From Myxococcota bacterium (GTDB lineage: Bacteria > Myxococcota > JAJVIH01): DNA of 64,000 nucleotides. The first letter of the stretch is position 1; each line of letters starts with the position of its first letter. Made by a program: the position numbers and the translations under genes. Where the stretch lies: NCBI GenBank assembly GCA_022072125.1, contig JAJVIH010000016.1, forward strand, positions 167,205-231,204, given 5' to 3'. The notes below the pieces were generated by a model, which saw nothing but the letters and a program-made list of their open reading frames with translations, searched no databases and was not told where the DNA came from. Below are positions 10,168-27,964 of this stretch, piece by piece.

Positions 10168-10211
10168 GGCGCCACACTTCCTCTCTGGCTCACGTTTGTG
10201 ACTATATCAAG

Positions 10212-10523: not shown

Positions 10524-10562
10524 TCATGCTAGTTTCCTTTTGCGAACCATGAATATTCCCCG

Positions 10563-10599: not shown

Positions 10600-10611
10600 G
10601 TCATTCTGCCT

Positions 10612-10836: not shown

Positions 10837-10854
10837 GTCGTCCTCCATGGCGGA

Positions 10855-11862: not shown

Positions 11863-11918
11863 GGGGGTTCCTTCTGGAAAAAGCGGCGCGGCGGCGTTTG
11901 ACCGCCGCGCCAGGGTTG

Positions 11919-12185
11919 TCAGACGAGCAGCGCGGCGGCGGCGCCGGGCGCTCCAAAGGCTTCGGCGATCAGGCGGCGGCGGGCCTGCCGCCGGGCCTGT
12001 TCACGGTCCATCGCGTCGTCTCGCGAGCGCGCCAGCTCCAGTTCGCGCCGCAGCGCTTCCTGGCGGCGGTCGCGCTGGTCGGCGAGCAGAAGCTGGATGA
12101 CCTCAAGGTCGGGTTTGGTCAGCCGTCCCTCGATCAGCTTGCGCGCCTCGTCGAGGGCGATCTGGTTGATGCTGCTGGTTTCCAT
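11919..12185 (-). CDS. Small charged helical protein of virion cassette
   Basis: This 88-residue protein is dominated by Arg, Glu, Ala and Leu, with a helix of residues about 45-75 (RREALRRELELARSRDD type) likely to form a coiled coil. AGGAGA precedes the ATG by 5 nt. It lies between the 327-residue and 335-residue virion genes. No family is recognised; a chaperone, linker or small ejection protein are all possible. Confidence 0.6.
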   Translation of the reverse strand: METSSINQIALDEARKLIEGRLTKPDLEVIQLLLADQRDRRQEALRRELELARSRDDAMDREQARRQARRRLIAEAFGAPGAAAALLV

Positions 12186-12208
12186 GATCTTCTCCTGGGG
12201 TGGGGTGA

Positions 12209-13192
12209 TTACTTCAGGCGCGCGAGCAGCTCGACGGCGCTGTCGTAGCCGAGAAATTCGATGACCCGGCGCGCCTCGGATGGCGTGTACAGCCCGGTCG
12301 AGACCAGATCGTTGACGAGCTGATCCTCGCGGGTCTTTTGCGCCGCGGCCTCCGGGTCTTCGCCGAGCACCTTGTTTTCGCGGGCCGCGCGCAGGCGGGC
12401 GAGCAGGCGATCGCGCTCCTCCGCGGTGATTTCGCCGCGCGCGTGGTCGTCTTCAATGCGGCGGCGCTCCGCTTCCCACGGGTCCGAGGCGGTGCCGAGC
12501 TGGGATTGCAGGGCGCGATCCCGCGCGGCCTCCTCGCGCGCGAACTCGCGCTGCCGATCGTTGTCGCGCAGGCGATCCGAGGCCAGCCCGCGCTCCAGAT
12601 CGCGGTTGAGCTGACCCTCGCGCGAGCGGAACCGGCGATCCGCCGCGTCCTGCGCCAGGCCTGCTTCCAGACCGAGCGCGCGCAGGCCGAATTCCGTGGC
12701 GTCGCGCCACTGTTCGCGCCGGAGCCTGGCGTCCTCGGCGTCGAGTTCGCCGCGCAGGCCCGCCAGGCGCGCGCCGGCTTCGCTTTCCAGTCCGGCCGCG
12801 CCCGCGAAGAACACCCCGCTCTGCGCGAGGCCGCGCGCACCCAGTTCGCCGCGCAGACGCTCGATGGCTGCGTTCCGCGCGGAAGAGATGGCCTGGGCGC
12901 CGCTGTTGAGCCGCGCGTTGTATTCCGCGGGCCCGAGTCCGGACAGCCGCTCGTTCATCAACGACTGCAGTTTCGCGCGCGCGCCGTCCAGTTCTCCGGA
13001 TCGCGCGGCGCCGGTGTCCAGCCCGGCGAGGGCGCCCGCGCCGGGAAAAAATGAAACGCCGGAGGCGGGAGCCAGTTGGACTCCGCGCAGGCGCTCCGTC
13101 AGGGTGGGAGCCAGCGCCGGGACGCGGAACGGCGCGCGGTTGAACGCGCTCCTTTCCGGCGTCAGCGCCGGCGGGGACCAGGGATTCTGCAT
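12209..13192 (-). CDS. Long helical virion protein, possible internal/ejection protein
   Basis: The 327 residues are mostly Ala, Arg, Leu, Glu and Gly, forming long helices such as AARLRREQ-type and RLRDNDRQREFAREEAARDR repeats (residues about 120-260). A short apolar N-terminal part includes VSFFPGAGALAGLD. Podovirus internal virion proteins have this composition and position, but I see no specific signature. AAGGAGAA precedes the ATG by 4 nt. It is far too short for a tail tape measure, supporting a short-tailed particle. Confidence 0.55.
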   Translation of the reverse strand: MQNPWSPPALTPERSAFNRAPFRVPALAPTLTERLRGVQLAPASGVSFFPGAGALAGLDTGAARSGELDGARAKLQSLMNERLSGLGPAEYNARLNSGAQAISSARNAAIERLRGELGARGLAQSGVFFAGAAGLESEAGARLAGLRGELDAEDARLRREQWRDATEFGLRALGLEAGLAQDAADRRFRSREGQLNRDLERGLASDRLRDNDRQREFAREEAARDRALQSQLGTASDPWEAERRRIEDDHARGEITAEERDRLLARLRAARENKVLGEDPEAAAQKTREDQLVNDLVSTGLYTPSEARRVIEFLGYDSAVELLARLK

Positions 13193-13208
13193 GGGTTCTC
13201 CTTTCCGG

Positions 13209-13727
13209 TCAGGCCGCGTGATGGGCCTTGAAGATCAGCGTCACATCCACGCCTGAAGCGGTTCCCGTTCCAGCATGGGGCGTGATGGTGACAGTCAGGT
13301 TTGCGGACGCCGCGATGGCGCCATCGGCGATGGTTCCCGCCGCCGGCGATTTTTCCGCGGTGATGGCGATGGGCGCCGCCAGCACGGAAACGCCGTTTTC
13401 CTTCACATCCACGCGCACCTCGGTCAGGCCGCCCAGCAGGGAAACCCGCGCCACGGCGCCCACGAGCGTGCAGGGGGCGGGCGGCGCGCGCATCCACAGG
13501 CCATCGGCGTCGCCGTAGGAATCGGGAAGGCTTTCCTTCGAGAGCGTGACCAAGAAATACGCGCGCGGGCTGGCCAGCTTGGAGTTGGCGACGCCCGCGG
13601 AGGGCGACAGGTTGCCGTCGTCGAGCCCGCCGTTGACGGCGTCTTCCACCTGGGCGAACGCGGTGTTCAGCGCAGCGGCGCCCAGCACCGCGCCATCGGT
13701 GAAGTCATTGACATTGAGAGTGGCCAT
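13209..13727 (-). CDS. Virion-associated beta-rich protein
   Basis: The 172-residue protein has an N-terminal stretch (MATLNVNDFTDGAVLGAAAL) typical of phage fibre or head-decoration proteins that anchor through their first residues, then beta-rich sequence. The ATG at 13727 shares its last-read base with the TAA stop of the upstream gene (TAATG), so the two are translationally coupled; the frame is open further upstream but inside that gene. Confidence 0.55.
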   Translation of the reverse strand: MATLNVNDFTDGAVLGAAALNTAFAQVEDAVNGGLDDGNLSPSAGVANSKLASPRAYFLVTLSKESLPDSYGDADGLWMRAPPAPCTLVGAVARVSLLGGLTEVRVDVKENGVSVLAAPIAITAEKSPAAGTIADGAIAASANLTVTITPHAGTGTASGVDVTLIFKAHHAA

Positions 13728-14020
13728 TACCAGTTCTCCTCCCAGGCCAGGGTTGGCGGCGTGGCCAGGGTGACCGCGAAACGCCCCCACGCCGCCCGCT
13801 CGTTCGCGCCGGCGGATCCGCCTTCGCGGCCAAAGCAGATGGCGATGTAGCGCCGCGCGGGCGGTCCCGCGGCAGGCTCCGTCCACGCCGCGATCTGACC
13901 CGGGCGGCCCGGGCTGCGCGGCGAGGAGATCACGCGGATTTCCGCGCGCGCGAAAGGGTTTTCAATGGACCGCCGGAGCGCCTCGCGGTCTTCGGGGGTC
14001 AGGGTTTCCGTTGGTTTCAT
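13727..14020 (-). CDS. Small virion cassette protein, unknown
   Basis: About 97 residues with no recognised domain. The central part contains RRYIAICFGREGG and the C-terminus LATPPTLAWEENW, probably beta strands. The start at 14020 has GGAGG 5 nt upstream; an ATG four codons earlier is also open, the same start ambiguity as in the XhlA-like gene. It is coupled to the next gene through TAATG. It directly follows the hub-type protein, so a minor tail or head protein is likely. Confidence 0.55.
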   Translation of the reverse strand: MKPTETLTPEDREALRRSIENPFARAEIRVISSPRSPGRPGQIAAWTEPAAGPPARRYIAICFGREGGSAGANERAAWGRFAVTLATPPTLAWEENW

Positions 14021-14053
14021 GATTTCCTCCATGGTTGGCGGGTTGATGGTCCG

Positions 14054-16153
14054 TCAGCGCGCGAGGGCCTGAAACCGCAGGCCGAATCCGTGCAACACAA
14101 GCGGTTGCGGCGTGGCCCCGGTTTCAAACGTGAGCTGGATTTCCTGGCCCACCGCCCGCGACAGCGCGGTCCCGCGCGCGCGAATCCGCGTGCGCGGCGT
14201 CAGGCGGAAACCTTCCGGCCCGCCAACGCCCAGCTTCAGGTTCGCCCCCGGGACTCCGGCGCCATCCGGGGCCAGCGTGATCGCGCGGCGGATGCGGTGC
14301 AGCCGGATTTCCTCCGGCCGCACCTGGGCGGACAGCGCCGCTAGCATGTAGAACTGGACCCAGAAGGCGCGGACGCCGCCATAAACCTCCGGCTCCCACA
14401 GACCGGGCAGCTCCCACTCCACAATGCCGGAGCGCGCCAGCGGAGCGCCGTTGTGCGAAGAGCCGTCGCGCAGGTTCGGCAGCGGGGCCCACCCCAAGGG
14501 GGTGCGGTATCCGCCCTTGAGATCAATCACGGTGGTGTTGGCGTGCGCCGGCGGCCATCCGCCCGCGCTGAACACAAACTCCACGCCGCCAAAGGCGGTG
14601 TCCGATCCAATCAGGATCATGCCGCCGTCCTGCGCGGCGGGCAGCGCGTCGAACCGTGCGAAGGTGGCGAGGTTGTTGTCGCCGGCTTCGCGCGTGGCGT
14701 CCTGCAGCGTCAGGCCGTGATCGGCGGAGGTGAACACGAAGCGCGGCGCGGCGGTCGCCTCGCTGGCGCCGTCGAGTCCCCATCCCACGTACAGCGTTTG
14801 CCTGCCCGTGGCTTCCACGATCGGCGCCGCGCCCCGGAACCGCTTGCGCCGCCGCGCGCCGCCGTCAATCAGTTGAGTGCGGATGTACGCGGACACCGGA
14901 ACCGGATCGCCGCCCAGCAGGTCCTCGCAGAGATGATGCAAGCGATAGACGCCGGAATGGATATGTCCGGATCCGGAGAAAAACAGTTCGCCGTTTTCCC
15001 CGTTGACCTCGCCCGCGGCGATGCGATCGCAGGGGATTCCGGAGAGGATGCTGTACGCCCGCTTTTCCGCGTCCAGGCAGATGACCGCGTTGTTGCGCGT
15101 GGACGAGGTGGTTGAAATTCCCCACCAGATGCGCGGGCTGGCTGGCTCCGCCGCGCCGGTGATGAAGGAGATGCGGCCGCGGTTGACGCGGCCGCGCCAG
15201 GTCTCCGCGATCTCGCGGGAGATCACGCGGGCGCTGAAGCCGTCGGTCACGGCGAAACCTTCGTCCGAGACGAAATAGAGCGCGCCGTCCTTTTCGACGA
15301 TGGAATGCTCCGACGCGCAGCCCAGCGCCCCGGGCAGCCGCGTGATGACGCCGGGCTCGTCGAGCGGATGCCCCCCCGAAATGCGGAAGATGGCGTCGCG
15401 CGTGAACACGATCAGCGCGCCGCCGAGCGAGGCGAGACCGGTCACGCGGTCGCCGCCGTCGAGGTCCAAGTTGTAGAACGCGAACGCGCGGTAATGCGCC
15501 GGACGCAGCACGTCGGAGAAGATGATCCTGCCCGGCCCTTCGGCGTTCTGCAGCCCCGCGAACACCACGCAGCCCTGGTGCAGCGTCACGCAGCGGGCGG
15601 GCGGCAGCGATCGCAGGTAAGGCGCCGCCGCGCCGCCGGGAGTTTGCACGGGCTGCCGCGCCATCAGCCATCCCGTGAAACCCAGCCCCAGCGCCTGGTT
15701 CAGCTCTTCCGTGTAATGAGCGGCGGCGATGGGCTCGTCCACGCCGTTGGTCAGAATGACCGACGGAACGCCGTCCTGCCGCACGGTGACGTGCTGGAAC
15801 GGGCGCGTGGAGTCGTTGCTGTGAATGATCACGGGCGAGGCGAGCGGGCCGGGAAGCCCGTTGAACGGCCCGCCGTTGCGCGCCGCGAACAGGCGCAGCG
15901 TGTTGGGGCCCTCGCCGGAAATCGCCGCCAGGGATCGCTCCGCCGCCGAGGCTTCGTGGGTGAACAGCGCCACCGGCGATTGCGTGGCGTCGAGGCCCGC
16001 AAACCGCCGCACGCCGCGCCGTTTGACCAGGGCGCCGCCGCGAATCTCCATGTTGATCAGTTCGCAGGGCTGGTTGATGTCCGCCTCGCCGGGCAGTTCG
16101 TTCATTCCGCCGTCGAGGGAGATGCGTTCAATATGCTGGATGGGCGTAGGCAT
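14054..16153 (-). CDS. Tail hub/stopper-type protein
   Basis: This 699-residue beta-rich protein begins with a short lead (SLDGGMNELPGEADI) followed by CELINMEIRGGALVKRRGVRRFAG. That beginning is typical of podovirus head-completion or hub proteins such as P22 gp10-type or T7 tubular-tail-type proteins, which dock under the connector and close the DNA channel. Repeated beta blades (SLGGALIVFTRDAIFRISGG, KDGALYFVSDEGFAVTDG) suggest a propeller-like body. It follows the connector gene directly, as expected. Exact family unproven. Confidence 0.65.
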   Translation of the reverse strand: MPTPIQHIERISLDGGMNELPGEADINQPCELINMEIRGGALVKRRGVRRFAGLDATQSPVALFTHEASAAERSLAAISGEGPNTLRLFAARNGGPFNGLPGPLASPVIIHSNDSTRPFQHVTVRQDGVPSVILTNGVDEPIAAAHYTEELNQALGLGFTGWLMARQPVQTPGGAAAPYLRSLPPARCVTLHQGCVVFAGLQNAEGPGRIIFSDVLRPAHYRAFAFYNLDLDGGDRVTGLASLGGALIVFTRDAIFRISGGHPLDEPGVITRLPGALGCASEHSIVEKDGALYFVSDEGFAVTDGFSARVISREIAETWRGRVNRGRISFITGAAEPASPRIWWGISTTSSTRNNAVICLDAEKRAYSILSGIPCDRIAAGEVNGENGELFFSGSGHIHSGVYRLHHLCEDLLGGDPVPVSAYIRTQLIDGGARRRKRFRGAAPIVEATGRQTLYVGWGLDGASEATAAPRFVFTSADHGLTLQDATREAGDNNLATFARFDALPAAQDGGMILIGSDTAFGGVEFVFSAGGWPPAHANTTVIDLKGGYRTPLGWAPLPNLRDGSSHNGAPLARSGIVEWELPGLWEPEVYGGVRAFWVQFYMLAALSAQVRPEEIRLHRIRRAITLAPDGAGVPGANLKLGVGGPEGFRLTPRTRIRARGTALSRAVGQEIQLTFETGATPQPLVLHGFGLRFQALAR

Positions 16154-16219
16154 GTCCGGCTTTCTCCGGCGCGCGCGCCGGGGTGGAGGGTGAAGCGGAG
16201 AAAATATTCCGTGGCGTGA

Positions 16220-16873
16220 TCACCAGCGGGGACCCGCGTCGCGGGCGAGCACGGGCCCTGCGTCCATGCGGCCGCGGCCCGCATCCCGTTCGGCGAGTTG
16301 CATGCGCGCACGAAACGCCTCGCGCATTTCCTCGGCGCTTTCATCGCGGCTGGCCCGGCACAGGATCGCCGCGCGCAGCGCGATCAGATCATGCGCGTCC
16401 GGCGGGATGTCCGGCGCCGCGGAGTCCTGGGTCAGCGGGGCGAACGGCGGGACCCAGGTGATGCGCCATTGGAGCGGCCGCGCCGGAACCGGGTCGGTCA
16501 GCAGGGAGTCGCCGGTGAAGAACACGCGGTATCCGGGCGTTTCATCCGCGGGCGATCCGCGCCGCGAAACGTCGGCGAGAGGAACCACCACCGGCAGGCC
16601 GGCCCCGGCGGAGATATCCTCGATCTGGATGATGCGCACGGCGCCCGCCAGCGGGGCGTGCAATGAGGCCAGCGCGGCCGCGTGCTGGCCGGCGGGAAAG
16701 GTCACGTTGACAGGCGGCGCGGCCAGCACGCGGCTGTCCAGCGCGAGATAATTCGCCCGCAGTTCGCGGTACGCCAGGTTGATGAAACGGATGATGGTCT
16801 CATCGCTGTATTCGGCGGCGATGGGCTCATCAATCCATTCGCGGACGTGTTCGCGCAGTTCAAGAAGGTTCAT
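16220..16873 (-). CDS. Head-tail connector/adaptor protein
   Basis: The 217-residue protein starts with MNLLELREHVREWIDEP, then FINLAYRELRANYLALD, a helical beginning common to phage head-tail adaptors (HK97 gp6/P22 gp4-like families). A beta-rich middle and a C-terminal helix follow. The ATG overlaps the stop of the preceding 168-residue gene as ATGA, and GGAGAATCC lies upstream. Position between capsid and hub genes fits an adaptor ring binding the portal. Confidence 0.7.
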   Translation of the reverse strand: MNLLELREHVREWIDEPIAAEYSDETIIRFINLAYRELRANYLALDSRVLAAPPVNVTFPAGQHAAALASLHAPLAGAVRIIQIEDISAGAGLPVVVPLADVSRRGSPADETPGYRVFFTGDSLLTDPVPARPLQWRITWVPPFAPLTQDSAAPDIPPDAHDLIALRAAILCRASRDESAEEMREAFRARMQLAERDAGRGRMDAGPVLARDAGPRW

Positions 16874-17376
16874 GGATTCTCCAGGCGGTGTTTGGGTGAG
16901 GGGGAAGAGGCGGGTTGCGCGCCCGCGAACACCAGGCGTCCGGAAAGCGCGGCGCGCAGGTCCATGGCGGCGTCCTCCGCCGCGTCGAGGGCCGCCCGCG
17001 CGCGCTCCCGTCCGGCTTTCTCCGCACCGGCGCGCAGGTGCGAGATCCATGCGCGGGCGCCGCCGAAGCGGGCGTGATCGTGGTCCCGCAGCGCCTGTTC
17101 GATGCGGCCGTCCCAGGGCCACGGCGAGACAAAACGGCCCCGGCCGTCCTCCAGCGTGAGCACGCGGTATTCGCCGTCCTCCATGCCGGCGAGGGTTCCG
17201 CCGTTGATCGCCCCCAGCAGGACGGGACGGCGCTCCATCATCACCACGCACCAGCGGCGGCGCGGTTTGAGCCAGCGGAATTCGAGGCGCGGATCAATCG
17301 CGCGCAGGCGTGAGCGGGCTGACGCGCCAGGGGCGGGAACGCCCGGCGGCGCGGCGGGTTCGTGAATGCGTTGCAT
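16870..17376 (-). CDS. Hypothetical virion cassette protein, 168 aa
   Basis: No known family recognised. An N-terminal Pro/Ala-rich part is followed by a compact region with several Trp and Arg (FRWLKPRRRWCVVMMERRPV and FVSPWPWDGRIEQALRDHDH), then a helix rich in Ala, Arg and Glu. It lies between capsid and connector genes, where small decoration or head-maturation proteins occur. It is coupled to the connector gene by an ATGA overlap and has a GGAGA ribosome site. Confidence 0.55.
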   Translation of the reverse strand: MQRIHEPAAPPGVPAPGASARSRLRAIDPRLEFRWLKPRRRWCVVMMERRPVLLGAINGGTLAGMEDGEYRVLTLEDGRGRFVSPWPWDGRIEQALRDHDHARFGGARAWISHLRAGAEKAGRERARAALDAAEDAAMDLRAALSGRLVFAGAQPASSPSPKHRLENP

Positions 17377-17473
17377 GGCGTCTCCAGAAAGGCCTCCGGC
17401 CGGCCCATCCGGAAAATTTTCCGGATGGGGGCCGGAGGGGTGTTGTCAGTTGGTCAATGACGCGCGGACGCCG

Positions 17474-18697
17474 TCACGCCGCGGCGGTGATGTCGTCAAT
17501 GCGGCCGTGGGCGTTGCAGCGCGTGGTTCCCAGGTTGCCCATGAAGTACACGGTGAACTCATAGGCGAAGCTGTCGCCGACGCGCGCAAGCTGCGAGCCG
17601 TCCCGGTCCATGAAGGTGAAATCGTTCACCTGGAACAGATGGATGTGATCGGTGTTGAGCAGGAACATGCGGTTGTAGGGCGCGAAGCGATCCTTCACGA
17701 CCTCGATGTCCCGCCCGCCGCCGGAGAACGTCAGCCTGCCCACGCCGCCCTGCAGCGCGGCGGAGGAGAAGCGGCGGTTCTGGTGCAGCAGTTCCGCGTA
17801 CTTCTCCCAGACGCTGGAGTGGCAGACGATCAGGTTGGGCTGCTCGCCCGAGCTGTTTTCGATGGCGTTGACCGCCTTGAGCATCAGCTCGATGGTGAGC
17901 GCGCGGTTGTTTCCGCCGTTGCCGTTGACGTACGCCTTCCACGCCGGGTTGGCGGCGCGGCTGACGCCCTGGTAGGAGGCGGCCAGTCCGCCATCATCAA
18001 CCATCGCCTCCACGCCGGTGAGTTCGTGGAAATTGTTGGCGTCGCGCACATCCGCCCGCGTGATGAAGTAGTTGTCGCTCAGCGTGGCGGGAGCGGACAG
18101 CTCGAACTGGGTTCCGTTGGCGATGCTGTCAATGACGAGGTTGTTGGCCTCCCGCGCGGCGCCGGCGGCGCGGCTGCTCCACACGTCCAGCTTCATGTGG
18201 CGGTGCAGGAACCGGGTTCCGGGGTTGTCCACGGTCACGGTCGCGGCGTTGTTCACGGCGCCGTTGATCTGCGCGAGCACGCCGTCGCCGCGGCCCCAGA
18301 TCTGGCGTCCCGCCTCGACGACGATGTCGGTTTTCAGGCGGGTCATCTCTTCGAGCAGCAGATCGCGGAAGGCTCCGCGGCTGGTGCGCGCCTGCTCGAT
18401 GGCCTCGCCTGTGATCCGGCCGCGCGCGAGGATGGTTTTCCGCTCGACCACGGCCTCCACGTATCCCTGCGCCTGGGCGCTGGGCAGTGCGCCGCCTTCA
18501 GCGGCCGCGCGCACCGCCTGGCTGCGCTCCAGATGCACGGGGAACACGTAGCGCCGTCCGGTCCAGCCGCGGGTGCGGCGGCGGATGCGGTTGAACAGCG
18601 GCAGTTCGTCATTGAGCTGCCGGGCCAGCGCCGGACCGTAATAGTCCTTGAGAATGGCGTTGGCGAGGGTCAGGGATTGCTGCGTTGGCGCAGGCAT
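17474..18697 (-). CDS. Phage major capsid protein (HK97-fold type)
   Basis: The 407-residue protein has the layout of a widespread tailed-phage capsid family: an N-terminal arm with ILKDYYGPALARQLNDELPL, then an E-loop-like region (RYVFPVHLERSQAVRAAAEG), a long spine helix (RGAFRDLLLEEMTRLKTDIV) and AGRQIWGRGDG. The A-domain-like C-terminal half contains LIVCHSSVWEKYAELL, typical of HK97-fold capsids. There is no large N-terminal scaffold extension, and a separate scaffold candidate precedes it. GGAGAC precedes the ATG. Expected to be the most abundant product of the cassette. Confidence 0.82.
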   Translation of the reverse strand: MPAPTQQSLTLANAILKDYYGPALARQLNDELPLFNRIRRRTRGWTGRRYVFPVHLERSQAVRAAAEGGALPSAQAQGYVEAVVERKTILARGRITGEAIEQARTSRGAFRDLLLEEMTRLKTDIVVEAGRQIWGRGDGVLAQINGAVNNAATVTVDNPGTRFLHRHMKLDVWSSRAAGAAREANNLVIDSIANGTQFELSAPATLSDNYFITRADVRDANNFHELTGVEAMVDDGGLAASYQGVSRAANPAWKAYVNGNGGNNRALTIELMLKAVNAIENSSGEQPNLIVCHSSVWEKYAELLHQNRRFSSAALQGGVGRLTFSGGGRDIEVVKDRFAPYNRMFLLNTDHIHLFQVNDFTFMDRDGSQLARVGDSFAYEFTVYFMGNLGTTRCNAHGRIDDITAAA

Positions 18698-18784
18698 GTT
18701 GTCTCCTTTCCGGTTGTTGATGGGCGGCGCGGAACCATTTCCGCGGCGCGCCCTTGCGGTCTATTGACAGAGTGTCATTGCTGA

Positions 18785-19636
18785 TCAGAATCCGGCGCGA
18801 AGCAGGAACTCCTCGGCCTTCTCGGCGGCTTCGTCGAGGGTCCTCGGCGCCGGGTTCGCCGGACCGGCGGATGGCCGCGAGGTCAGCAGGCCCTGCGTGG
18901 CCGCGGTGTTCCGCGTGACGGCCTCCGCGCGGGCGCGCTCCGCGGCGGGCGATCGCCGGGGCTGGAAGGTCTTGTCCACCAGCGCCGCGACGGTGCGCAC
19001 CGGCACGTCCACTCCCAGGCCCTCGCTCAGGCCGAGAACCGCGAGCGCGAACAGGTTGGCCTCGCCCGCCCAGTGGGGATAACGCGCGAGTTCGTTCTGA
19101 ATCGCCGTTTTCTGCTTCTGGTACTCCAGTTCGATCAGCGCGGACGCCGCTTCCCTCCGTTCGCGGCCGCTCAGGCGCTGCTCGACGGCCGCCAGCCTTT
19201 CGGCCATGGCCTGCTGCGGGTCCGCGGGCGGAGCGGCGTTGGCGGGAGCCTCGCCGATCACCGCCTCCACCAGCGCGCGGGCGTGGCCCAGGCGCTGGAG
19301 TTCCGCCTCGATGACCGCGATGCGCCGTTCAATCCGCTCCGCCTCCGCGGCGGTGGGCGGGGGTTCTTCCGCCGCCGGTTCCGGGGAGGCGGGGCCCGGC
19401 GGGTTTTCCGGCGGGGCGCCGGAAGCTCCGTTTTCACGCGGCGGCGCGGCGGCGGATGGCTCCGCTCCCTTCGCGGATTCGCCGTCAGGCGCGGCGCCGG
19501 CGCCCTCCAGTTCGCGCAGCGCGGCGGTGTCCCCGATGAAGGCCTCGGCGATTTCCGCGCGCTCCAGCAGGCCCGCGGTCCGTGCGTCCGCTTCGGCGAG
19601 ATTGCCGGGGGATTTGTTTTCGCCTTGATTTTCCAT
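18785..19636 (-). CDS. Capsid scaffold candidate
   Basis: The 283-residue protein is acidic and helical, with a long Pro/Ala/Gly/Glu-rich disordered part (about 45-100), a coiled coil (RIERRIAVIEAELQRLGHAR and MAERLAAVEQRLSGRERREA, about 102-170) and a basic C-terminal tail. Low complexity, coiled coil and position between portal and major capsid genes are the usual marks of a procapsid scaffolding protein. No protease signature is visible. AGGAGA precedes the ATG. Confidence 0.7.
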   Translation of the reverse strand: MENQGENKSPGNLAEADARTAGLLERAEIAEAFIGDTAALRELEGAGAAPDGESAKGAEPSAAAPPRENGASGAPPENPPGPASPEPAAEEPPPTAAEAERIERRIAVIEAELQRLGHARALVEAVIGEAPANAAPPADPQQAMAERLAAVEQRLSGRERREAASALIELEYQKQKTAIQNELARYPHWAGEANLFALAVLGLSEGLGVDVPVRTVAALVDKTFQPRRSPAAERARAEAVTRNTAATQGLLTSRPSAGPANPAPRTLDEAAEKAEEFLLRAGF

Positions 19637-19663
19637 GGTGTCTCCTGTTGGTGGATGGGTGGT

Positions 19664-21208
19664 TCAGCCGTTCGATGCGCGCGGCGCGGGTCCGCGGTGT
19701 TCCGGCGGCTGGTTGAGCAGCCGCGCGGCGAGATCGCCCGCTGGCGTTCCAGACATTCCCGCGCGCTCCAGTTCCATCAGCGTCTGCGCGCGCGACACGT
19801 TGCTCGCGCCCAGGCCGCTGCCCGCCTCCGCGACGACATCAATCTGCGCGGGAATATCGGCGGCGTTGAAGGCGATCGTCTCCACCGCCATGCCGCGGCC
19901 CACCACGCGCAGCACGCGCGGCGCCGTGTAGAATTGCTGGGCGCGCAGCAGCATCAGCCTGCCCAGCGCGGCGATGGACTGCTCGAAACGCCGCCGCACG
20001 GGGGAGAAGCGCGATGAATCCGCCTCCTGCAGGGCCGCCAGCGCGCGCCACGCGGTCACGCCGGCGGAGATTTCCCCCTCGCTCACCTCGTGAACGCCGG
20101 AGATGTCGCGGATGCACCGCCGGTGCTCCTCGATCTGCCGCCAGATGGATTCGGCGAGCGGCGGCGGGTACAGCACGCTGGGCGTGAATCCGCCGCTGTA
20201 ATGCAGGATTTCCCCCGGCGCGCTGGTGATTTTGTCGAGACCCACGCCCGCCTCGCGCGGGACCAGCCATTTGCCGTTCATGGTCAGGCGGTGATGCTCG
20301 TGGATGCGCGTGAGCGCGCCGTTGTACGCGCGCTGCAGGGGAATCACGTGATCAATCACCGCCTGTCCCCAGAAGCCGTGCTCGACCCGCAGATCGCTGA
20401 AGATCACGAACGGCAGGTCGCGATCCATGAACGGATTGGGGCCCCATTCCGCCGCGCGGCCATCCACCGTGATCGCCCTCAGACCGCATGGAAACTGGGG
20501 AGACGGGCGCTCCCACAGTTCAACGGCCATCACCGCGGCGTCATCGCCATCGCCGGGCGCCTGGTCGAACGCGGCGGGGTAGCGCATGAACGCCTCGGCG
20601 GCGGGCATGGCGCGCGCATGGATGGCGTAGCGGGCGCCGCGCAGGTCGCTCGCCTGCGGATCCACGAGGAAATCAAAGGGCGAGAGCGCCTCGACGGAGA
20701 CCTCGCCCGCGCGGCGCTCCATGCCGGAGCCGCTGGCGCCGTCTTCTGGCTCCGGGTCGCCCGCGTGCGGGTCCCAGCCGGCCTTGATGATTCCGGTTCC
20801 GGTTTTGAAGGCCCATCCCAGCGCGGTTTCGATCACGCCGTGCAGGCCCAGCTTGCGCCACAACGCCTCGATCAGCGCGTCGCAGGCGCGGGCGGCCCGC
20901 TGATCTTCCTCGTCCGCCGTGGCGGGCGCCACACGCACCACCGGCCGGGCGCTCAACAGGCGCGCCTTGTAATGCTCCACGATCGGCATCACCAAGTTGG
21001 CGGTGATGCGCGGCGGCGTGTTCTGGCCGGGACGCGCGGCGGGCGCGGCGTCTTCGGGCCATTGCCGGCCTTCGTAAAACTCCAGGTTGCGGCGCCAGCG
21101 CTCCAGATGCGGATCGCGCGCCTGGGCCGCTTCGTGAAGGCAGCGGCCGGCTCGCCCGGCGATGGCGTCGCGGTCCCACTGCAAGGTTGCTTCATCGGTA
21201 TTGTCCAT
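19664..21208 (-). CDS. Phage portal protein (podovirus type)
   Basis: The 514-residue protein resembles P22/T7-like portals. The N-terminal helix includes LERWRRNLEFYEGRQWPED; then RITANLVMPIVEHYKARLLS, AWGFKTGTGIIKAGW-type and LSPFDFLVDPQASDLRGARY segments are characteristic of portal wing and stem. The long helix ESIWRQIEEHRRCIRDISGVHE would line the DNA channel. The portal ring sits at one capsid vertex and is the docking site of the terminase. The ATG at 21208 follows GGAGAGATC; the frame is open upstream but overlaps the terminase gene. Confidence 0.85.
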   Translation of the reverse strand: MDNTDEATLQWDRDAIAGRAGRCLHEAAQARDPHLERWRRNLEFYEGRQWPEDAAPAARPGQNTPPRITANLVMPIVEHYKARLLSARPVVRVAPATADEEDQRAARACDALIEALWRKLGLHGVIETALGWAFKTGTGIIKAGWDPHAGDPEPEDGASGSGMERRAGEVSVEALSPFDFLVDPQASDLRGARYAIHARAMPAAEAFMRYPAAFDQAPGDGDDAAVMAVELWERPSPQFPCGLRAITVDGRAAEWGPNPFMDRDLPFVIFSDLRVEHGFWGQAVIDHVIPLQRAYNGALTRIHEHHRLTMNGKWLVPREAGVGLDKITSAPGEILHYSGGFTPSVLYPPPLAESIWRQIEEHRRCIRDISGVHEVSEGEISAGVTAWRALAALQEADSSRFSPVRRRFEQSIAALGRLMLLRAQQFYTAPRVLRVVGRGMAVETIAFNAADIPAQIDVVAEAGSGLGASNVSRAQTLMELERAGMSGTPAGDLAARLLNQPPEHRGPAPRASNG

Positions 21209-21246
21209 GATCTCTCCGGGTTGGCCGCGGAAACTTTCCGCGGTGT

Positions 21247-22788
21247 TCACAGCCACGAATCTCCGCCGCCGGAAGGCTCCAGCGCGCTGCGCCAGAAGAG
21301 GTCCTGCGGCGCGGAGGGCTTCTGCGCGCGGGGGTTGAGGGGCGGCCATTTCAACGCTTCCGCGCGCGCATGCAGGCAGATGGCCCGTGCGAAGACGCGA
21401 TCGTCATGCTGGCCATGACGGCCCGCCGGCCGGTTGTGGGCGTCGCAAATGAACGCGGCCAGTTCATCGAAGGTCTCCCGCGACGGCGTGGCGGCGTCCG
21501 GATCCCCCAGCGCCTCGCGCAGGCCGTGCAGCAGCGCGTGGCGCGCGCCGTGGGTCATTGTGAGGCCAGGCCGCATGGCGCCGGGCCTGCCCGGAACGCG
21601 CTCCATGTAGAGGCGCGGATACGCCGGCCCTGGCGCGCCGGAACCGTGATTTTCTCCCTTCAGCGCCTTCAGGCAGGGCTGGCCGGGTCCGTTGGCCTCG
21701 ACCGCGATCAGCGCCTGGTTGAAGTGGCGGCCCAGCGGAACCAGCACCTGCTCCGCGAGCGCCGCCGGATAAATCCGCCCATGCCATTCGGCCACGGTGC
21801 GGCCCGTCTCCGCGCAGCTCACGTCCACGGCGCTGAAATCCCCGCCGGTTTCGCCCCAGGAAGCGTCCGCGCCGATGACATAGCGGCGCGGCGGATCGGG
21901 CTCTTCCCACACGCTCAGGCGGCCGTCCGCGCGCGCGGTGAAGCGGCCTTTCGCATCCAGTTCGCCGCGCCACGCGGGAGGGCGCACGGTCGCGCGCAGC
22001 CGCTCCAGCACTTCGGGCGGGAAAAAATTCTGGCTGTCGCCAGAGGTGAATTCGCCGTGCAGGCGCGAGCGCAATTCGTGTCCGGGCAATCCGGCCATCG
22101 TGAATTCAATCGCCTCGGCGGGCACATGGGGGTTGTCCCGCGTGCTGGCGCGGAAGACGCGGCTGCCTGGACGCGGCTCCGCGAGAAAATCCCGGTGAAC
22201 CCAGGTGAACCCCTTCAGCGGCGTGAGCGTCAGCCACACATGGCCGTGGGTGTCGAGGGTGCGCAACAGACATTCACGGTAGATGTCTTCCGGCGGTTCT
22301 TCATCGAACCAGATCCACTCGCGCGAGACGCCCTGGAACAATTCGCGCCCGGCTTCCGCGCTCATCAGGCCGATGGTCGAACCGTTGCGGAAAACCCAGC
22401 GCCGTTCGGATGCGCGCCACTCCGCCGCGCCCGGCGGCAAAAACCGCGCGATGGTTCTTTCAATCACCTCGCGGCCCAGGTTATGGCTGGGCGTGACGAC
22501 CCACCCGTGGTTGGGCGTGGCGCATTCGCGGAATGGATGCACGCCGAGGGCGCTCCACAGGGCCTCGACGGCGCCGGCGGTGGTTTTGCCCGAGCGGTTG
22601 CCGGCGATGAACGCGCGACGCCGCTCCGTTCCGCGATGAAACTCCAGTTGCCGCGCGTGGGGCTGATAGGCCAACAACGGCCAGGCCCCGCCGTGCGCGC
22701 CGCGCCGCACGCGAAGGGCGGCGGCGATCCCTCCGCCGGCCAGCGCGATTTCGCGGCCGCCGGACGGGTTTTCGTGTGTGTTGCTCAT
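21247..22788 (-). CDS. Phage terminase large subunit
   Basis: This 513-residue DNA-packaging motor has an N-terminal ATPase with Walker A AGNRSGKTT (62-70) and Walker B WIWFDEE (158-164), a coupling-type LTLTP motif at about 186-190, and a C-terminal RNase H-like nuclease with acidic residues in GADASWGETGGDFSAVD (Asp308, Asp317). Both activities look intact, so DNA cutting and packaging are chemically possible. The ATG at 22788 overlaps the stop of the small upstream gene as ATGA; the longer open frame upstream is inside that gene. Confidence 0.92.
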   Translation of the reverse strand: MSNTHENPSGGREIALAGGGIAAALRVRRGAHGGAWPLLAYQPHARQLEFHRGTERRRAFIAGNRSGKTTAGAVEALWSALGVHPFRECATPNHGWVVTPSHNLGREVIERTIARFLPPGAAEWRASERRWVFRNGSTIGLMSAEAGRELFQGVSREWIWFDEEPPEDIYRECLLRTLDTHGHVWLTLTPLKGFTWVHRDFLAEPRPGSRVFRASTRDNPHVPAEAIEFTMAGLPGHELRSRLHGEFTSGDSQNFFPPEVLERLRATVRPPAWRGELDAKGRFTARADGRLSVWEEPDPPRRYVIGADASWGETGGDFSAVDVSCAETGRTVAEWHGRIYPAALAEQVLVPLGRHFNQALIAVEANGPGQPCLKALKGENHGSGAPGPAYPRLYMERVPGRPGAMRPGLTMTHGARHALLHGLREALGDPDAATPSRETFDELAAFICDAHNRPAGRHGQHDDRVFARAICLHARAEALKWPPLNPRAQKPSAPQDLFWRSALEPSGGGDSWL

Positions 22789-23024
22789 GGCGAATCTCCA
22801 TCGGGAGGCGGCAGCGAAACGCCGTACTGCTCGCGCAGGTATTCGCGGATGGCGATCCACGCAGCCGGTTCGCTCAGGAACCGTTCCGCGCTTCCGGCGC
22901 CGGCCTGCTCCTCGCAGATGCGCAGGGCCTCCTTCAGCGCGGCCAGGCGGATGCGCTCGTCTTCCGAGTGGACAAGTTCCGCCAGGCGCTCCATCAGGTA
23001 TTGCTGGTTCAGAACAGGATTCAT
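22785..23024 (-). CDS. Small terminase-subunit candidate
   Basis: A 79-residue helical protein (LMERLAELVHSEDERIRLAA, then ALKEALRICEEQ) is translationally coupled to the large terminase through ATGA. Small terminase subunits normally precede the large one and recognise DNA, but most exceed 100 residues and carry a clear helix-turn-helix, which I cannot see here. It could be a reduced TerS or an unrelated first gene. GGAAGAC lies before the ATG. If reduced, DNA recognition may be relaxed, as in gene transfer agents. Confidence 0.6.
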   Translation of the reverse strand: MNPVLNQQYLMERLAELVHSEDERIRLAALKEALRICEEQAGAGSAERFLSEPAAWIAIREYLREQYGVSLPPPDGDSP

Positions 23025-23397
23025 CGCGGTGTCTTCCCGGGGGTTGGGGTTTCGTTCCGGGGCCTGCGCGCGGCTTTTTCCCCGTTGGATTCGAGGCTCC
23101 GGAAAACCAGGGGCCGCACAGGCGTCCAAATTGAATTTCTATCAATGTCATGGGTTGTGATGGATTGTTTCCGGAGTGGTTTCCCGGCTTTTTCCGCCTG
23201 ACCGCCCGGCGTTCCCTGGCCGCCAAACCGGGCTTCGCCGCCAGGCGATCGGAGAGGCGGCGCCGCGCTCCGCTCCACTCCAGCCCGGCCCCCGCCCCGC
23301 GCGGAATAACCGGGCATTCTCCACATGGAAAGCGACGGGAAATCCGCCGCAGAACAGATCGGACGATCTGGATGAAATCCTTTTTTTTCCTTGTGAT

Positions 23398-23411
23398 GAT
23401 GAATATTCATC
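23398..23411. promoter_or_regulatory. Perfect 14-bp palindrome (GATGAATATTCATC)
   Basis: A fully symmetric 14-mer follows a run of eight T in the divergent region. Its half-site ATGAA also occurs in the fic-side dyads, but in the opposite arrangement. It may be an operator for the cassette promoter. Confidence 0.4.
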
Positions 23412-23431
23412 GCGCCGCCTTTCAAACCCGG

Positions 23432-23462
23432 GCGATCGGGATTTTTTTCCTCGCCCGATCGC
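23432..23462. promoter_or_regulatory. Inverted repeat, arms GCGATCGGG/CCCGATCGC
   Basis: Nine-base perfect arms are separated by 13 nt containing a T run. As DNA it is a possible operator. As RNA on the plus strand the T run would lie in the loop, so a standard terminator is unlikely. Confidence 0.4.
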
Positions 23463-23563
23463 TGACCGTTGGAACCAATTATGGTGATTTTCATGGGCAA
23501 ACCGTAAAAAATCGTATTTTCTCAATCAATCCGGATGGTTGGAAGCGCCTCAATTCCGCGGCT

Positions 23564-23593
23564 TGTCACCTTTTGTCACCTTTCAAGGTGACA
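23564..23593. promoter_or_regulatory. Operator array: TGTCACCTT direct repeat plus palindrome
   Basis: TGTCACCTT occurs at 23564 and again at 23574, and the second copy forms a perfect 20-bp palindrome (9-base arms, 2-base centre) with AAGGTGACA at 23585-23593. The array ends 13 bp before the -35 box of the regulator promoter, a usual position for an activator or autoregulator. Confidence 0.55.
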
Positions 23594-23606
23594 CGCCGTT
23601 CCCGTA

Positions 23607-23651
23607 TTGACATTCGGTAAAGTCAAACCTAATGTACGTTACAGATGTACA
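23607..23651 (+). promoter_or_regulatory. Sigma70-type promoter of the regulator gene, with start-site dyad
   Basis: A perfect -35 TTGACA (23607-23612) is followed after 17 bp by TAATGT (23630-23635) as a weak -10. Around the expected start lies TGTAC-N9-GTACA (23633-23651), a dyad well placed for repression. The gene starts 28 nt further on after an AAGGAG site. Confidence 0.5.
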
Positions 23652-23679
23652 GTAAATTTCCCGCCAAGGAGCATCTGTC

Positions 23680-24372
23680 ATGAATCAGGTCCAACCCAAC
23701 CCTGTCGCCCTTGATCATTGCCTGTCCTTCGATGAAATCGATCAACACCGCCACCTGTATTGCCGCCACTACGACGATTGCCTGGACGAAATGGAAAACC
23801 GCGTGGGCTTCACCTGCATGCACTGTCCGGTGTTTCACCAATGGCAGCGCCAGGGCTCGCCCGCGCCGGAGCGCGAAACCCGGGAAAGCAGCCCGCTGAT
23901 CGCGGAGAGCCTGACGCTGAACGTCTCGCATCTGAAACATTTTCCGGTTCCGCTTCGTCCGGCGTTTTCCGAAACGCTTGGCAGGGCGGCGAAGATGGCC
24001 GGGGTCCAGGCGGAACAGGCCGCCGCCGGAGGGTCGCTCAACCAGGAAATCCGCGAACTCACCGCGCGGCTGGTGGTGGAGATGCTGTCCTCCCCCGCCA
24101 TCATCCATCACCTCGATGAATCACTGACGGAACGCATGGAGGATCTGCGAAAAGAACGCATGAAGATGGGCATGCTGAGACGCCGCCTCAATGTGAAGGG
24201 GCTGGATCAGGCCGCCAGGGTGCTGGGCGTGTCGCGCCGCACGGTGCAACGCCTGATGAAACAGGGCGCTCCCATCCGGCTCTTTCGCGGACGTTATTTC
24301 GCCAACCGGAGCGAACTGATCCGCTGGCGTCAGTCGGCGTTTGGGGAGAAGATCCGTGACGGCCGGGAATAG
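23680..24372 (+). CDS. Putative DNA-binding regulator: four-Cys motif plus helix-turn-helix
   Basis: The 230-residue protein has an N-terminal Cys cluster, Cys28-x5-Cys34-x11-Cys46-x2-Cys49, with His residues 23, 25, 30, 48 and 53 around it; this could bind zinc or an Fe-S cluster. The middle (about 75-165) is helical and charged. The C-terminal part (LDQAARVLGVSRRTVQRLMK, then RGRYFANRSELIRW) is a clear helix-turn-helix with an excisionase/MerR-like recognition element. It is transcribed away from the virion cassette across a dyad-rich region, so control of that cassette is the natural hypothesis. AAGGAG precedes the ATG. A metal, redox or oxygen signal through the Cys cluster is speculation. 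Confidence 0.75.
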   Translation: MNQVQPNPVALDHCLSFDEIDQHRHLYCRHYDDCLDEMENRVGFTCMHCPVFHQWQRQGSPAPERETRESSPLIAESLTLNVSHLKHFPVPLRPAFSETLGRAAKMAGVQAEQAAAGGSLNQEIRELTARLVVEMLSSPAIIHHLDESLTERMEDLRKERMKMGMLRRRLNVKGLDQAARVLGVSRRTVQRLMKQGAPIRLFRGRYFANRSELIRWRQSAFGEKIRDGRE

Positions 24373-24552
24373 GCGTCATGCGCCGCGGTTTCCGCGATCC
24401 TGGATTCGCGGCGTCCGCAACGACCCCAACGGCTGATCCGGTGAACGCTCAACATGGTTGATCTGGAGAAACCGGCGGTCCGCGCGGGCAAGGAGACGGT
24501 TCGCATCGTCTCCCGCCCGCCGCCGCGGGAGATTGTTCCGCGCAAGGGCGTC

Positions 24553-26676
24553 TTACCTTCCGGCGGTCGAGGCGTTCTGGATGTTGCGGATGGCGACCTG
24601 CGCGGACTTGGTCAGCTCTTCGTTCTTTTCCTTCTGCAGGTTGAGCAGCGCCGGCAGCGCGCGCTGGCTGCGCAACTGCCCCAGCGCCTCGGCGGCGGAG
24701 GCCCGCACCTTCACATCGTGCGCCTGGCCGCCCCCCAGGCTGATGCCCGCGAGGCTGTTGACCTTGCGCTCCAGCGCGGCGATGAGCACGTCTTCCACAT
24801 CCACCTTCATGATATGGCGCTTGGTGACGAGACAGCGGATGGCGCCGATCAGCACGCGGTTGGTCTCGCGGTTCTCCTTGTCGCGCAGCACCCGTTCGAT
24901 GAACAGATCAAAGGCGTCGTCGCTTTCCGGGGCCGCCTCGAATTCTTTAATCGCCTGGTAGCGCACGTTATCATCGGGATCGCGGAGCAGGCGGGCCAGT
25001 TCGGGCAGGGCCAGCCCGCCCATGATCAGGTGATAGGCGTGCGCGGCCTCCATGCGCACCCGCGGGTCCTCGTGGTGGAGGAATTTCTCGATGCGCGGTC
25101 CCTGGCTCATGTCCGCCACCTGCCCCAGGATGTCGAGGAAATTGCGGAGCTGGAACCACTCCAGCTTTTCGTTCTCCATTTGCCGGACCAGGTAATCCAC
25201 CACCACCTGCCCCTGGGTGGCGAGACAGTCAATCAGGAATTTGCGGAGCCAGCGGTCGTTGCTGCGCTTGAGAAATTCGATGAGCAGGCGCAGGCCGGCG
25301 TTGCCCGCCATCATCAGCAACTCCACCGCGGGTTCGCGCTCTTCCTTCTTGGCGCCTTCAAACCAGCGCAGCAGGTTTTCGATGACGCCTTCGTCGTTCA
25401 GGGAGATCAGCCCCGCCCGCGCCAGTTGGCGATCTTCGTCGGTGTCGCCATTGTCGGCGGTCCACACCAGGAACTGGATGACATAGAACGCCAACAGGTG
25501 GCGGTCGGTGGTGGTCAGCAGCTTGAGGAAATAATCGGCCTCGCGCAGGAACGAGGTGAGCCGCGCGCCCTCCAGAAATTGGAAGAATCCTTCCGGGTCC
25601 TGCTCCAGGTACACCACCAGCATGCGCTTGACGAAGGTTTCGCGCATGTTTTCCGGCAGGTCGCCGATATGGATGATCTGCTTGACCAGCAGGATTTCCA
25701 CCAAGTCGATCTGTTTGCTCGCCATGTCGCGGATGAACCGGCGCGCCAGGCGGGGCAGGAGCTGCCAGACCATGTGCTTTTCAAAGTCCAGTATTTCCAG
25801 ATCGGTTCCGGCGGGCGGATTCTCGAATACATCGAGCCGCTGCATCATGAACTCCAGCAACGGTATCACCCGGCGATCGTCCAGGTACTCAATGACCTCC
25901 TGCGACGGATGAATATGCTTGTTGGGGCCGATCGCCTTGTCCACCAGGTCAATGTTGATCAGGGCCTCGTAGAGTTGCGTCTGGTTGATCAGTCCCTTCA
26001 GCGCCTCGCTGTAGAGGTTGGGCTTGACCTTTTCAATTTCCAGCGGATTCTGATCCTGGACCGCCATGATCAGGCGGAAATCCTGCACCAGCTTGGTCAG
26101 CGCCAGGTTGACCCGGTAGCTGAGCTTGCGCATGGCGCCGACGAAATCTTCCTTGAAGATCAGGCGGACGTTGCGGACATCCCGCTTCTCGAACTCGTTT
26201 TTGATGTACTCGTTCTGTTCCTCGACGGAGCCGGTGAGCTTGCCGTTCATCACCTCGAAGAAACGCCCCAATTCCTCCCAGGTCAGCCACGGCAGGAGCG
26301 AGATGGACGCCAGTTTGCGGCGGTCCATATAAGCCGAAAATTTGGGCAGGTAGAGATCGCCCATTCCGGTCGGCAGCACCTCGCGCAGGGAGTAGGGCCC
26401 GCCTTCCAGGCCGTCAATGATGACGTCCGGGCGGTCGCCGCCGGTCAGCAGGGTGAAGGAGATGTATTTGTTCGAGCCTTCCCGGATGGCGCGCTGGAAA
26501 CCGTGGAAAATCTTGTTGAGCGCGCGCCGTCCTTCCGGATGGGAAGGATCGTAATAATTGGTGGTCAGAAGCGATTGGATCCAGTTGAGAAAGAAATCCT
26601 GGACTTCCTGATGGATGCCCTTTTGATTGGGAACGGGAATTCCCGCTTTCGACATTCTTGGCGATGCATCGGCCAT
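24553..26676 (-). CDS. HEAT-repeat protein, unknown function
   Basis: The 707-residue soluble protein has helical repeats, clearest in the last third (for example IEKFLHHEDPRVRMEAAHAY, LARLLRDPDDNVRYQAIKEF and VRASAAEALGQLRSQRALPA), matching HEAT/PBS-lyase-like repeats that form a protein-binding solenoid. The N-terminal 200 residues contain HPEGRRALNKIFHGFQRAIR and look like a separate domain. There is no enzyme motif, signal or TM. HEAT proteins of this kind are frequent in myxobacterial-type genomes. It is probably a single-gene unit. Confidence 0.75.
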   Translation of the reverse strand: MADASPRMSKAGIPVPNQKGIHQEVQDFFLNWIQSLLTTNYYDPSHPEGRRALNKIFHGFQRAIREGSNKYISFTLLTGGDRPDVIIDGLEGGPYSLREVLPTGMGDLYLPKFSAYMDRRKLASISLLPWLTWEELGRFFEVMNGKLTGSVEEQNEYIKNEFEKRDVRNVRLIFKEDFVGAMRKLSYRVNLALTKLVQDFRLIMAVQDQNPLEIEKVKPNLYSEALKGLINQTQLYEALINIDLVDKAIGPNKHIHPSQEVIEYLDDRRVIPLLEFMMQRLDVFENPPAGTDLEILDFEKHMVWQLLPRLARRFIRDMASKQIDLVEILLVKQIIHIGDLPENMRETFVKRMLVVYLEQDPEGFFQFLEGARLTSFLREADYFLKLLTTTDRHLLAFYVIQFLVWTADNGDTDEDRQLARAGLISLNDEGVIENLLRWFEGAKKEEREPAVELLMMAGNAGLRLLIEFLKRSNDRWLRKFLIDCLATQGQVVVDYLVRQMENEKLEWFQLRNFLDILGQVADMSQGPRIEKFLHHEDPRVRMEAAHAYHLIMGGLALPELARLLRDPDDNVRYQAIKEFEAAPESDDAFDLFIERVLRDKENRETNRVLIGAIRCLVTKRHIMKVDVEDVLIAALERKVNSLAGISLGGGQAHDVKVRASAAEALGQLRSQRALPALLNLQKEKNEELTKSAQVAIRNIQNASTAGR

Positions 26677-26881
26677 GGATAATCAAGGGCGCCCGGATGG
26701 CCACACCCCCCCATTTGCATGTCAATAATCTTAAAACAGGAGCCGGTTGAAATCAAAAACACGCCCTGTCAAAGCGTTGATTTTCCGCTGGTGTTTCCGG
26801 CTCGTCCCATGATGGAACAGGTTGTGGAGGCTTCATCCGGCCCCCGCGGCGTTGTAATCCCATTGAACCAGACGGGGGGAT

Positions 26882-27964
26882 TCAGCCCCGCGGATTGAGC
26901 GGGCGGCCGATCCAGCCCTGAATGCGCCGCCCCAACTCCCGGTAATGGGAACGAATGCCCGCATGAAACAGGTGACTGCCCGGGAAGACAGCCAATTCGC
27001 AGTTGAAGTGGTCCGCCAGGCGTTCCGCGTGCCGCAACGGGGTGATGCGATCCATGCGCGCGCCGATGACATACAGGCGATCCCCGGGCAGCCGCGCCGG
27101 ACGATGCAGCGGACTGATCACGCGGTAGGCCTGTTGCAGGGCGTCGTGCAGTTCCTGTCCCTGGGCGCCGGGTCCCAGGCGGTTGTGCGTGCGCAGAAAA
27201 TCGGGAATGCAGGCCAGGGGGATGATCGGGGCCGCGAAGTCAATGCCGTCCTCCAGCGTGGCCAGCAGGGAGGTGGTGTAGCCGCCCAGGCTCATGCCAA
27301 TCACCCCAACCGCGGGCGCGCCGCGTTCGCGCATCCAGCGGATCAGCACCCGCACATCGCGGACGGCCTGGCGGAAGCCCTCGATGGTGAATCGCGGATC
27401 CGGGTTGGGAAAGGGCGGCGGCCCCTTGCGCTCCGGTTCGCCGCGGCGGGCGTGAAACGGGAGTTGCATCAACACGGCGTCGAGGCCAATCGAATCAAAA
27501 TAGCGGAGCGGCCAGACCCGCTGCTCCAGTCCCCACTGGCCGGCCATGTATCCGTGCAGGATGATCAGCGCCGGACGGGGTTCATCCCGCAGGAAAAGGC
27601 GCGCCCATGCGGTGCGGTTGGCGGGATGGCGATCCATCCACGAGTCGCGCAGATCGGGATGCAGGGGCTGGTGATCGCTCTTCCAGGAGGCGTCCCATAC
27701 CTGAACCCCGGATGGCAGGATTTGTTCGCGCCGCGGGCTCAATTCCTCCGGCGGGGGCCGCGGAAAGAACCGTTCCGGATCGCCGCTGTGCGGATGCTCG
27801 CGGAAGAACTGCGTGATGCGCGCCACCCGCTCCATCTTTTCCTGGTGGCTCAGGCGCTCCGCCTGTCCGGGCCTGGGCGCCATGATTTTCATCAGGGCCC
27901 TGTCCACGCCGGCGGACACCGGTCCCACGACCCAGCGGTGGTATGGATGAATCCGTTTTTTCAA
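26882..27964 (-). CDS. Alpha/beta hydrolase
   Basis: The 360-residue protein has the alpha/beta-hydrolase nucleophile elbow GMSLGGYT, an oxyanion-type HGYMAGQW strand turn, a late acid in GARMDRITP and a final His in GSHLFHAG, so the triad looks complete. It resembles the ABHD18-like group of uncharacterised hydrolases. The start is uncertain: the open frame begins with TTG at 27964, overlapping the upstream kinase stop, without a clear ribosome site. Coupling to the ABC1 kinase hints at a lipid or quinone-related substrate, which is inference. Confidence 0.8.
   Translation of the reverse strand: MKKRIHPYHRWVVGPVSAGVDRALMKIMAPRPGQAERLSHQEKMERVARITQFFREHPHSGDPERFFPRPPPEELSPRREQILPSGVQVWDASWKSDHQPLHPDLRDSWMDRHPANRTAWARLFLRDEPRPALIILHGYMAGQWGLEQRVWPLRYFDSIGLDAVLMQLPFHARRGEPERKGPPPFPNPDPRFTIEGFRQAVRDVRVLIRWMRERGAPAVGVIGMSLGGYTTSLLATLEDGIDFAAPIIPLACIPDFLRTHNRLGPGAQGQELHDALQQAYRVISPLHRPARLPGDRLYVIGARMDRITPLRHAERLADHFNCELAVFPGSHLFHAGIRSHYRELGRRIQGWIGRPLNPRG

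Follow-up and report, generated by a model that had tools for sequence, protein, structure and literature searches.

Several systems that have already been described resemble parts of the locus that we analyze here. PrtN is a winged helix-turn-helix (HTH) activator of phage-derived pyocin clusters and acts via a P-box (PMC8609362). XisF4/Pf4r is a divergent, autoregulating, excisionase-type switch of Pf prophages (PMC7379572). The MerR-like protein BldC forms head-to-tail oligomers on direct repeats (PMC5859096), and RdfS, which also forms oligomers, binds the promoter of its own gene (PMC11963761). Finally, the small subunit of terminase has an N-terminal HTH and a central coiled coil, and it is encoded just upstream of terL (PMC6854486).

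Our locus lies within a 64-kb window (the whole stretch of DNA that we analyzed) from a draft genome in 78 contigs. It encodes a 230-amino-acid protein, which for convenience we call the regulator, divergently from a cassette of virion genes. The resemblance to PrtN is that of a winged-HTH regulator beside a phage-derived particle cassette with a repeated box, although our protein might either activate or repress. Foldseek gave a weak and non-significant match between the regulator and a phage protein annotated as PrtN (probability 0.85, E = 0.14). The regulator begins with a four-cysteine (Cys4) domain, and we know of no such domain in PrtN. With XisF4/Pf4r, the regulator shares the excisionase-type protein, the divergent genes, and the common upstream region, but we found no integrase or repressor partner at this locus. 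BldC and RdfS, too, have a MerR/Xis-like winged HTH and form oligomers on DNA (in the case of BldC, on periodic direct repeats), but these are small single-domain proteins with no Cys domain, and our box mixes direct and inverted sites. The regulator is a new combination of domains within a known kind of protein, the winged-HTH regulators of phage-type cassettes.

A Cys4 domain fused to a winged helix-turn-helix

The regulator gene (23680..24372, + strand) is an open reading frame with a gene-like pattern of GC content across codon positions (0.68/0.42/0.75). It is preceded by a strong ribosome-binding site, AAGGAG (23666..23671, +), and by a promoter-like TTGACA-17-TAATGT (23607..23635, +), whose -35 hexamer matches the consensus and whose -10 is weak; this candidate promoter was absent from the output of a stricter promoter scan. 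The protein consists of a Cys4 mini-domain, a helical middle, and a C-terminal winged HTH.

The original prediction, which was made from the DNA alone, described a C-x5-C-x11-C-x2-C cluster with surrounding histidines, joined to an excisionase/MerR-like DNA-binding end. Both parts hold up. The cysteines are spaced precisely as described, C28-x5-C34-x11-C46-x2-C49, and H23, H25, H30, H48, and H53 lie nearby; all four cysteines are invariant across 14 homologues. Even a looser form of the pattern arises in just 7 of 20,000 shuffles of the protein. At the other end, HTH_17 (PF12728) matches above Pfam's cut-off (30.8 bits versus 27, E = 3.5e-7), and there is a match to the PHROG family “excisionase and transcriptional regulator” (phrog_66, 3.7e-8), while NCBIfam's excisionase model TIGR01764 scores 19.6 bits, which is below its cut-off of 28.8. 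Pfam, PHROG, and AlphaFold together place the winged HTH at residues 172-224 (24193..24351, +); it has a charge of +10 and a predicted two-strand wing. As compared with other HTH_17 or excisionase-MerR proteins, the regulator is distinguished by having this domain at the C terminus of 230 amino acids, behind long helices and with no integrase partner.

Helices are predicted for residues ~94-171, and the two that lead into the HTH (residues 119-171; 24034..24192, +) are probably an oligomerisation segment. In the AlphaFold model, pLDDT is ~82-87 for residues 121-160. When run on the single sequence, AlphaFold gave an unusable model (pLDDT 49); with 8 homologues of the domain, the pLDDT rose to 65.9, and that model is reliable for the helices and the HTH only. 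Searches with the fold of the regulator gave no match below E = 0.1.

The fusion itself is rare. We found no full-length relatives in phages, plasmids, or IMG/VR, and the tested relatives of the virion cassette lack it. With the C-terminal 168 amino acids as the query, we recovered only the source genome and one marginal match (E = 0.0095).

A 119-bp box shared with dispersed repeats

Between the regulator gene and the cassette lies a 119-bp box (23478..23596) that is common, without gaps, to about 14 dispersed repeats. The window's box is identical to the repeat consensus at 88 of 119 positions (mean for the window 30.2, standard deviation 4.7). Its right end is 10 bp short of the regulator gene's TTGACA hexamer, and the first ORF of the cassette is ~450 bp away. 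In a gapless alignment with 13 other copies over the 119 bp, the similarity is concentrated at the two ends of the box: against the consensus of the other copies, the left block matches at 22/22 positions, the middle at 35/63, and the right block at 32/33, and outside of the box the identity is near random.

The left block (23478..23499, - strand; ATTATGGTGATTTTCATGGGCA) is a 22-bp sequence that is identical in 12 other copies. This 22-mer occurs 13 times in the genome, always exactly, and we found no near-misses with up to 3 mismatches. On the minus strand it contains CATAAT, a possible leftward -10, although this candidate promoter matches the consensus poorly. We considered whether a leader peptide (MPMKITII...) could instead begin in the left block, and rejected this for two reasons: the lengths of the spacers differ between copies by non-multiples of three, and the 159-amino-acid frame at 23021-23500 does not have the GC pattern of coding DNA.

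The right block contains an operator-like array (23564..23593) of three TGTCACCTT sites, at 23564(+), 23574(+), and 23585(-), so that they are spaced by 10 and 11 bp. These two direct sites and one inverted site make up the strongest dyad, TGTCACCTTTTGTCACCTTTCAAGGTGACA. The 20-bp palindrome has 17 sites in the genome at up to 2 mismatches, as compared to 0 for a reversed control, and a degenerate form of it was found in 15 places in the source genome and in 0 of 188 other genomes from the phylum. Viral contigs that bear the palindrome or the pair of half-sites lack a related protein. The dyads on which the original prediction drew are thus present and operator-like, but they are not specific to this locus: they are part of a dispersed 119-bp element.

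In the other copies (~14), the box marks where a dispersed repeat ends on its right side; this repeat carries a mobile-looking orphan gene. One example is at L111:13471-14850 (contig C1 of the source genome, G000; ~141.5-142.9 kb), and there are copies on about 13 further contigs. Most of the copies are at the ends of contigs, where repeats typically fall when an assembly is a draft. To the left of the box, the repeats encode a 226-amino-acid orphan protein (MRVIREWPLLPEWLVEHDPYQ...). The last 226 codons of this ORF are under strong purifying selection (dN/dS of 0.02-0.09), versus ~0.4-0.9 for the first 150 codons. The orphan protein has no significant relative in Pfam, PHROG, PADLOC, phages, or IMG/VR, and it is absent from the 188 other genomes of the phylum. 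Among copies of the repeat, the divergence is 0.034 in the box, 0.131 in the spacer, 0.09-0.12 in the next 450 bp, and 0.36 in the 60 bp to the right, so the box is 3-4 times less diverged than the sequence that flanks it within the repeats. Because the box has diverged so little among the repeats, and because the window's copy retains both end blocks and their spacing, the box is a functional cis-element under constraint, and we predict that it is bound by a protein. We did not expect to find such a concrete element, a constrained box common to the upstream region of the cassette and to about 14 repeats.

How might the regulator act?

Our preferred reading, which we hold tentatively and which could well be wrong, is that the regulator is a sequence-specific DNA-binding protein that controls both its own gene and the adjacent virion cassette via the 119-bp box. 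The C-terminal winged HTH would bind the three helically phased TGTCACCTT half-sites; spacings of 10 and 11 bp are the geometry expected if dimers or oligomers of a winged-HTH protein sit on one face of the DNA. The protein would act as a dimer or oligomer, held together by the helices that precede the HTH. The box lies directly upstream of the regulator's -35 hexamer and also upstream of the leftward promoter-like block. In the simplest model, an occupied array would govern the two directions at once, whether by activation or by repression. PrtN and XisF4/Pf4r are precedents for such control, and BldC and RdfS for winged HTHs that form oligomers on DNA. The N-terminal Cys4 domain would be a mini-domain that was recruited from Myxococcota. 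Dispersed repeats, about 14 of them, end in this box as well, and the regulator probably acts on them too. The locus is an example of a Cys domain from the host's lineage joined to a phage-type DNA-binding domain beside virion genes, and it is plausible that such a fusion is a step in bringing a particle under host control.

Several arguments stand against our reading. First, the roughly 14 other boxes have no regulator gene alongside, so the box may be a part of the repeat element that some different protein recognises. Second, the fusion has no homologues, and hence no conserved link between the protein and the site is visible. Third, the candidate leftward promoter is a poor match to the consensus, and ~450 bp separate the box from the cassette's first ORF.

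The first argument leads to an alternative that we consider possible, if somewhat unlikely: the repeat may end on its right in the box, or have in it some other cis-site for a protein, and the orphan protein or another host factor may be what recognises it. The window's box would then have been left by the repeat element, or taken from it, and would now be no more than DNA near the regulator gene's promoter, while the regulator would use other sites, such as the TTGAC-N9-GTCAA over its own -35. The abrupt fall in similarity between copies just past the palindrome (p-distance of 0.36 in the right flank, versus 0.034 in the box) speaks for this alternative. The purifying selection on the orphan protein fits as well, and so do the palindromes, with 15 in this genome and none in the other 188. 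However, a decayed relic would not retain both end blocks and the spacing between them while the middle drops to 56% identity, and the window's copy is itself constrained.

A further, bolder reading strikes us as doubtful: the box could be a shared control or packaging site, and a single factor encoded at this locus would use it to link the phage-derived particle to a selfish orphan gene with about 14 dispersed copies. If so, then either the repeats are satellite-like elements that have borrowed a site for regulation or packaging from the particle, or the particle is wired to many sites in the genome.

The Cys4 domain in Myxococcota

The Cys4 domain occupies residues 4-60 of the regulator (23689..23859, +). 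Using tblastn with the regulator protein as the query (E <= 1e-4), we found the domain in 117 of 195 genomes of Myxococcota; among the matches listed, the alignments were confined to the N-terminal half of the regulator and none extended into the HTH. The homologues that we examined are stand-alone ORFs, mostly of ~70-100 amino acids, with no second fusion among them. With the small Cys4 proteins of Myxococcota (~75-100 amino acids, for example in Anaeromyxobacter), the regulator shares the pattern P-x-P ... HR[NH]-[LV]-x-C-x2-Y-x2-C-[LIV]-...-C-x2-CP and ~28-41% identity over the domain. These proteins stand alone by housekeeping genes, whereas the regulator has an added linker and HTH. Across 14 aligned sequences, the fixed columns are P8, R24, C28, Y31, C34, C46, C49, and P50. 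The regulator's version has two residues fewer before the third cysteine and has lost a nearly invariant tryptophan.

This family is not represented by any model in Pfam or NCBIfam, and we found nothing specific about it in the literature. A scan of genome contigs with the domain yielded 11 loci, nine of which have titles with Myxococcales or Anaeromyxobacter; the remaining two are metagenome-assembled genomes titled “Deltaproteobacteria” and “Proteobacteria.” The named loci coincide with several genomes of the source's own phylum, and from this we infer that the phylum is Myxococcota. Around 13 Cys4 genes, the neighbors include lytic transglycosylase (four loci), RecA, LemA, the S30AE hibernation factor, histidine kinases, and transporters, and none of the 25 most frequent families listed is a terminase, portal, or capsid. 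In several families, one stand-alone subfamily has a gene for a lytic transglycosylase next to it (L061, L067, L068, and L072), which is a conserved neighborhood, and another (L060 and L071) is flanked by genes for LemA and for a ribosome-hibernation factor (S30AE plus a cold-shock domain). The source genome also has a stand-alone paralogue of its own (contig C64, L058:346-612, 88 amino acids), and no TGTCACC site is present upstream of it.

These results bear on a check that was proposed with the original prediction, namely whether homologues of the Cys motif always neighbor terminase genes; homologues mostly away from phage-like genes would refute the prediction. At the loci examined, the homologues are stand-alone and away from phage-like genes, which refutes the phage link for the Cys module. 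By their alignments and distribution, residues 4-60 are a host-derived mini-domain found across Myxococcota rather than a sensor module from phage. What survives of the original interpretation is a Cys4 DNA-binding protein divergent across an operator-like region; what does not is the tie between the Cys module and phage, and the dyad is common to about 14 unrelated loci. It now seems quite unlikely that the protein switches the particle on in response to metal or redox state. Four invariant cysteines with flanking histidines, ahead of a DNA-binding domain, would suit a sensor, but a structural zinc site would explain the invariant C-x5-C and C-x2-C pairs equally well, related cassettes lack the Cys domain, and the domain is a general one in Myxococcota that is located away from phage genes. 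Most likely, the Cys4 domain is a structural site for (presumed) zinc or a module for contacting other proteins, and not a dedicated phage sensor. Because a majority of the Myxococcota genomes that we searched encode it, any function found for it here would inform many genomes.

The virion cassette and its surroundings

That the regulator gene is divergent from a virion cassette is clear: the minus strand encodes TerL, a P22/SU10-type portal, an SU10-type major capsid protein, and an SU10 adaptor, and the regulator gene points away from them. The terminase large subunit (21247..22788, -) matches Pfam's Terminase_6N (2.7e-15) and phrog_2 (1.9e-32), the portal protein (19664..21349, -) matches P22_portal (2.8e-24) and SU10_portal (4.3e-22), and the major capsid protein (17474..18697, -) matches phrog_14242 (6.7e-57) and NF033394 (7e-61). 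The nearest named relatives of the cassette, from phages of Arthrobacter, Microbacterium, and others, are distant (25-35% identity), and a related capsid was found in just 1 of 188 other genomes from the phylum. We found nothing specific in the literature about a gene transfer agent (GTA) of this type from Myxococcota. No Rfam RNAs were found within 8000-27000.

The first gene of the cassette is a 79-amino-acid ORF (22785..23024, -) that ends at the start of terL. This is the usual position of terS, and profile searches gave no HTH match. In position and kind, a small ORF before terL with no detectable HTH resembles gp1 of RcGTA (PMC6854486). With the terS position already taken, it is very unlikely that the regulator is itself a packaging-site binder akin to the terminase small subunit; in that case the box would be a pac/cos-type site, and packaging could also start at the dispersed boxes. 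The box does lie beside terminase genes, the HTH weakly resembles the small subunits in phrog_57 (4e-4), and the predicted fold has some likeness to the DNA-binding domain of lambda gpNu1 (Foldseek rank 2, E = 0.72), which has a similar type of winged HTH and also a terL nearby, and to TerS 7lw0 (E = 1.5). But all of these fold matches are non-significant, and the regulator differs from gpNu1 and other small subunits in its order of domains (which is reversed, so the HTH is at the wrong end), in its orientation (divergent from terL), and in its position relative to the operon.

We see hardly any chance that the regulator is an excisionase, that is, a recombination directionality factor: it does match phrog_66, and TIGR01764 below cut-off, but the window has no integrase, and the genome encodes just two tyrosine recombinases, both of XerC/XerD size (~315 amino acids) and both on other contigs (C23 and C69). 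As for metalloregulators of the MerR family, these have an N-terminal winged HTH, then a coiled coil, and a C-terminal effector domain, and the order of domains excludes the regulator from that group, as its HTH is C-terminal and its Cys domain is N-terminal.

Some other genes in the window are worth mentioning. On the host side, the regulator adjoins a gene for a 707-amino-acid HEAT-repeat protein (24553-26676, -). Beside the virion cassette is a Fic-family protein (9004-10167, -) that matches PADLOC's SoFic defence model (2.2e-100), and ~450 bp of AT-rich non-coding DNA separates its gene from the cassette. Farther along, three adjacent genes for type IV pilin-like proteins (45999-48101, -) have near-identical N-termini (GFT[IL]...).
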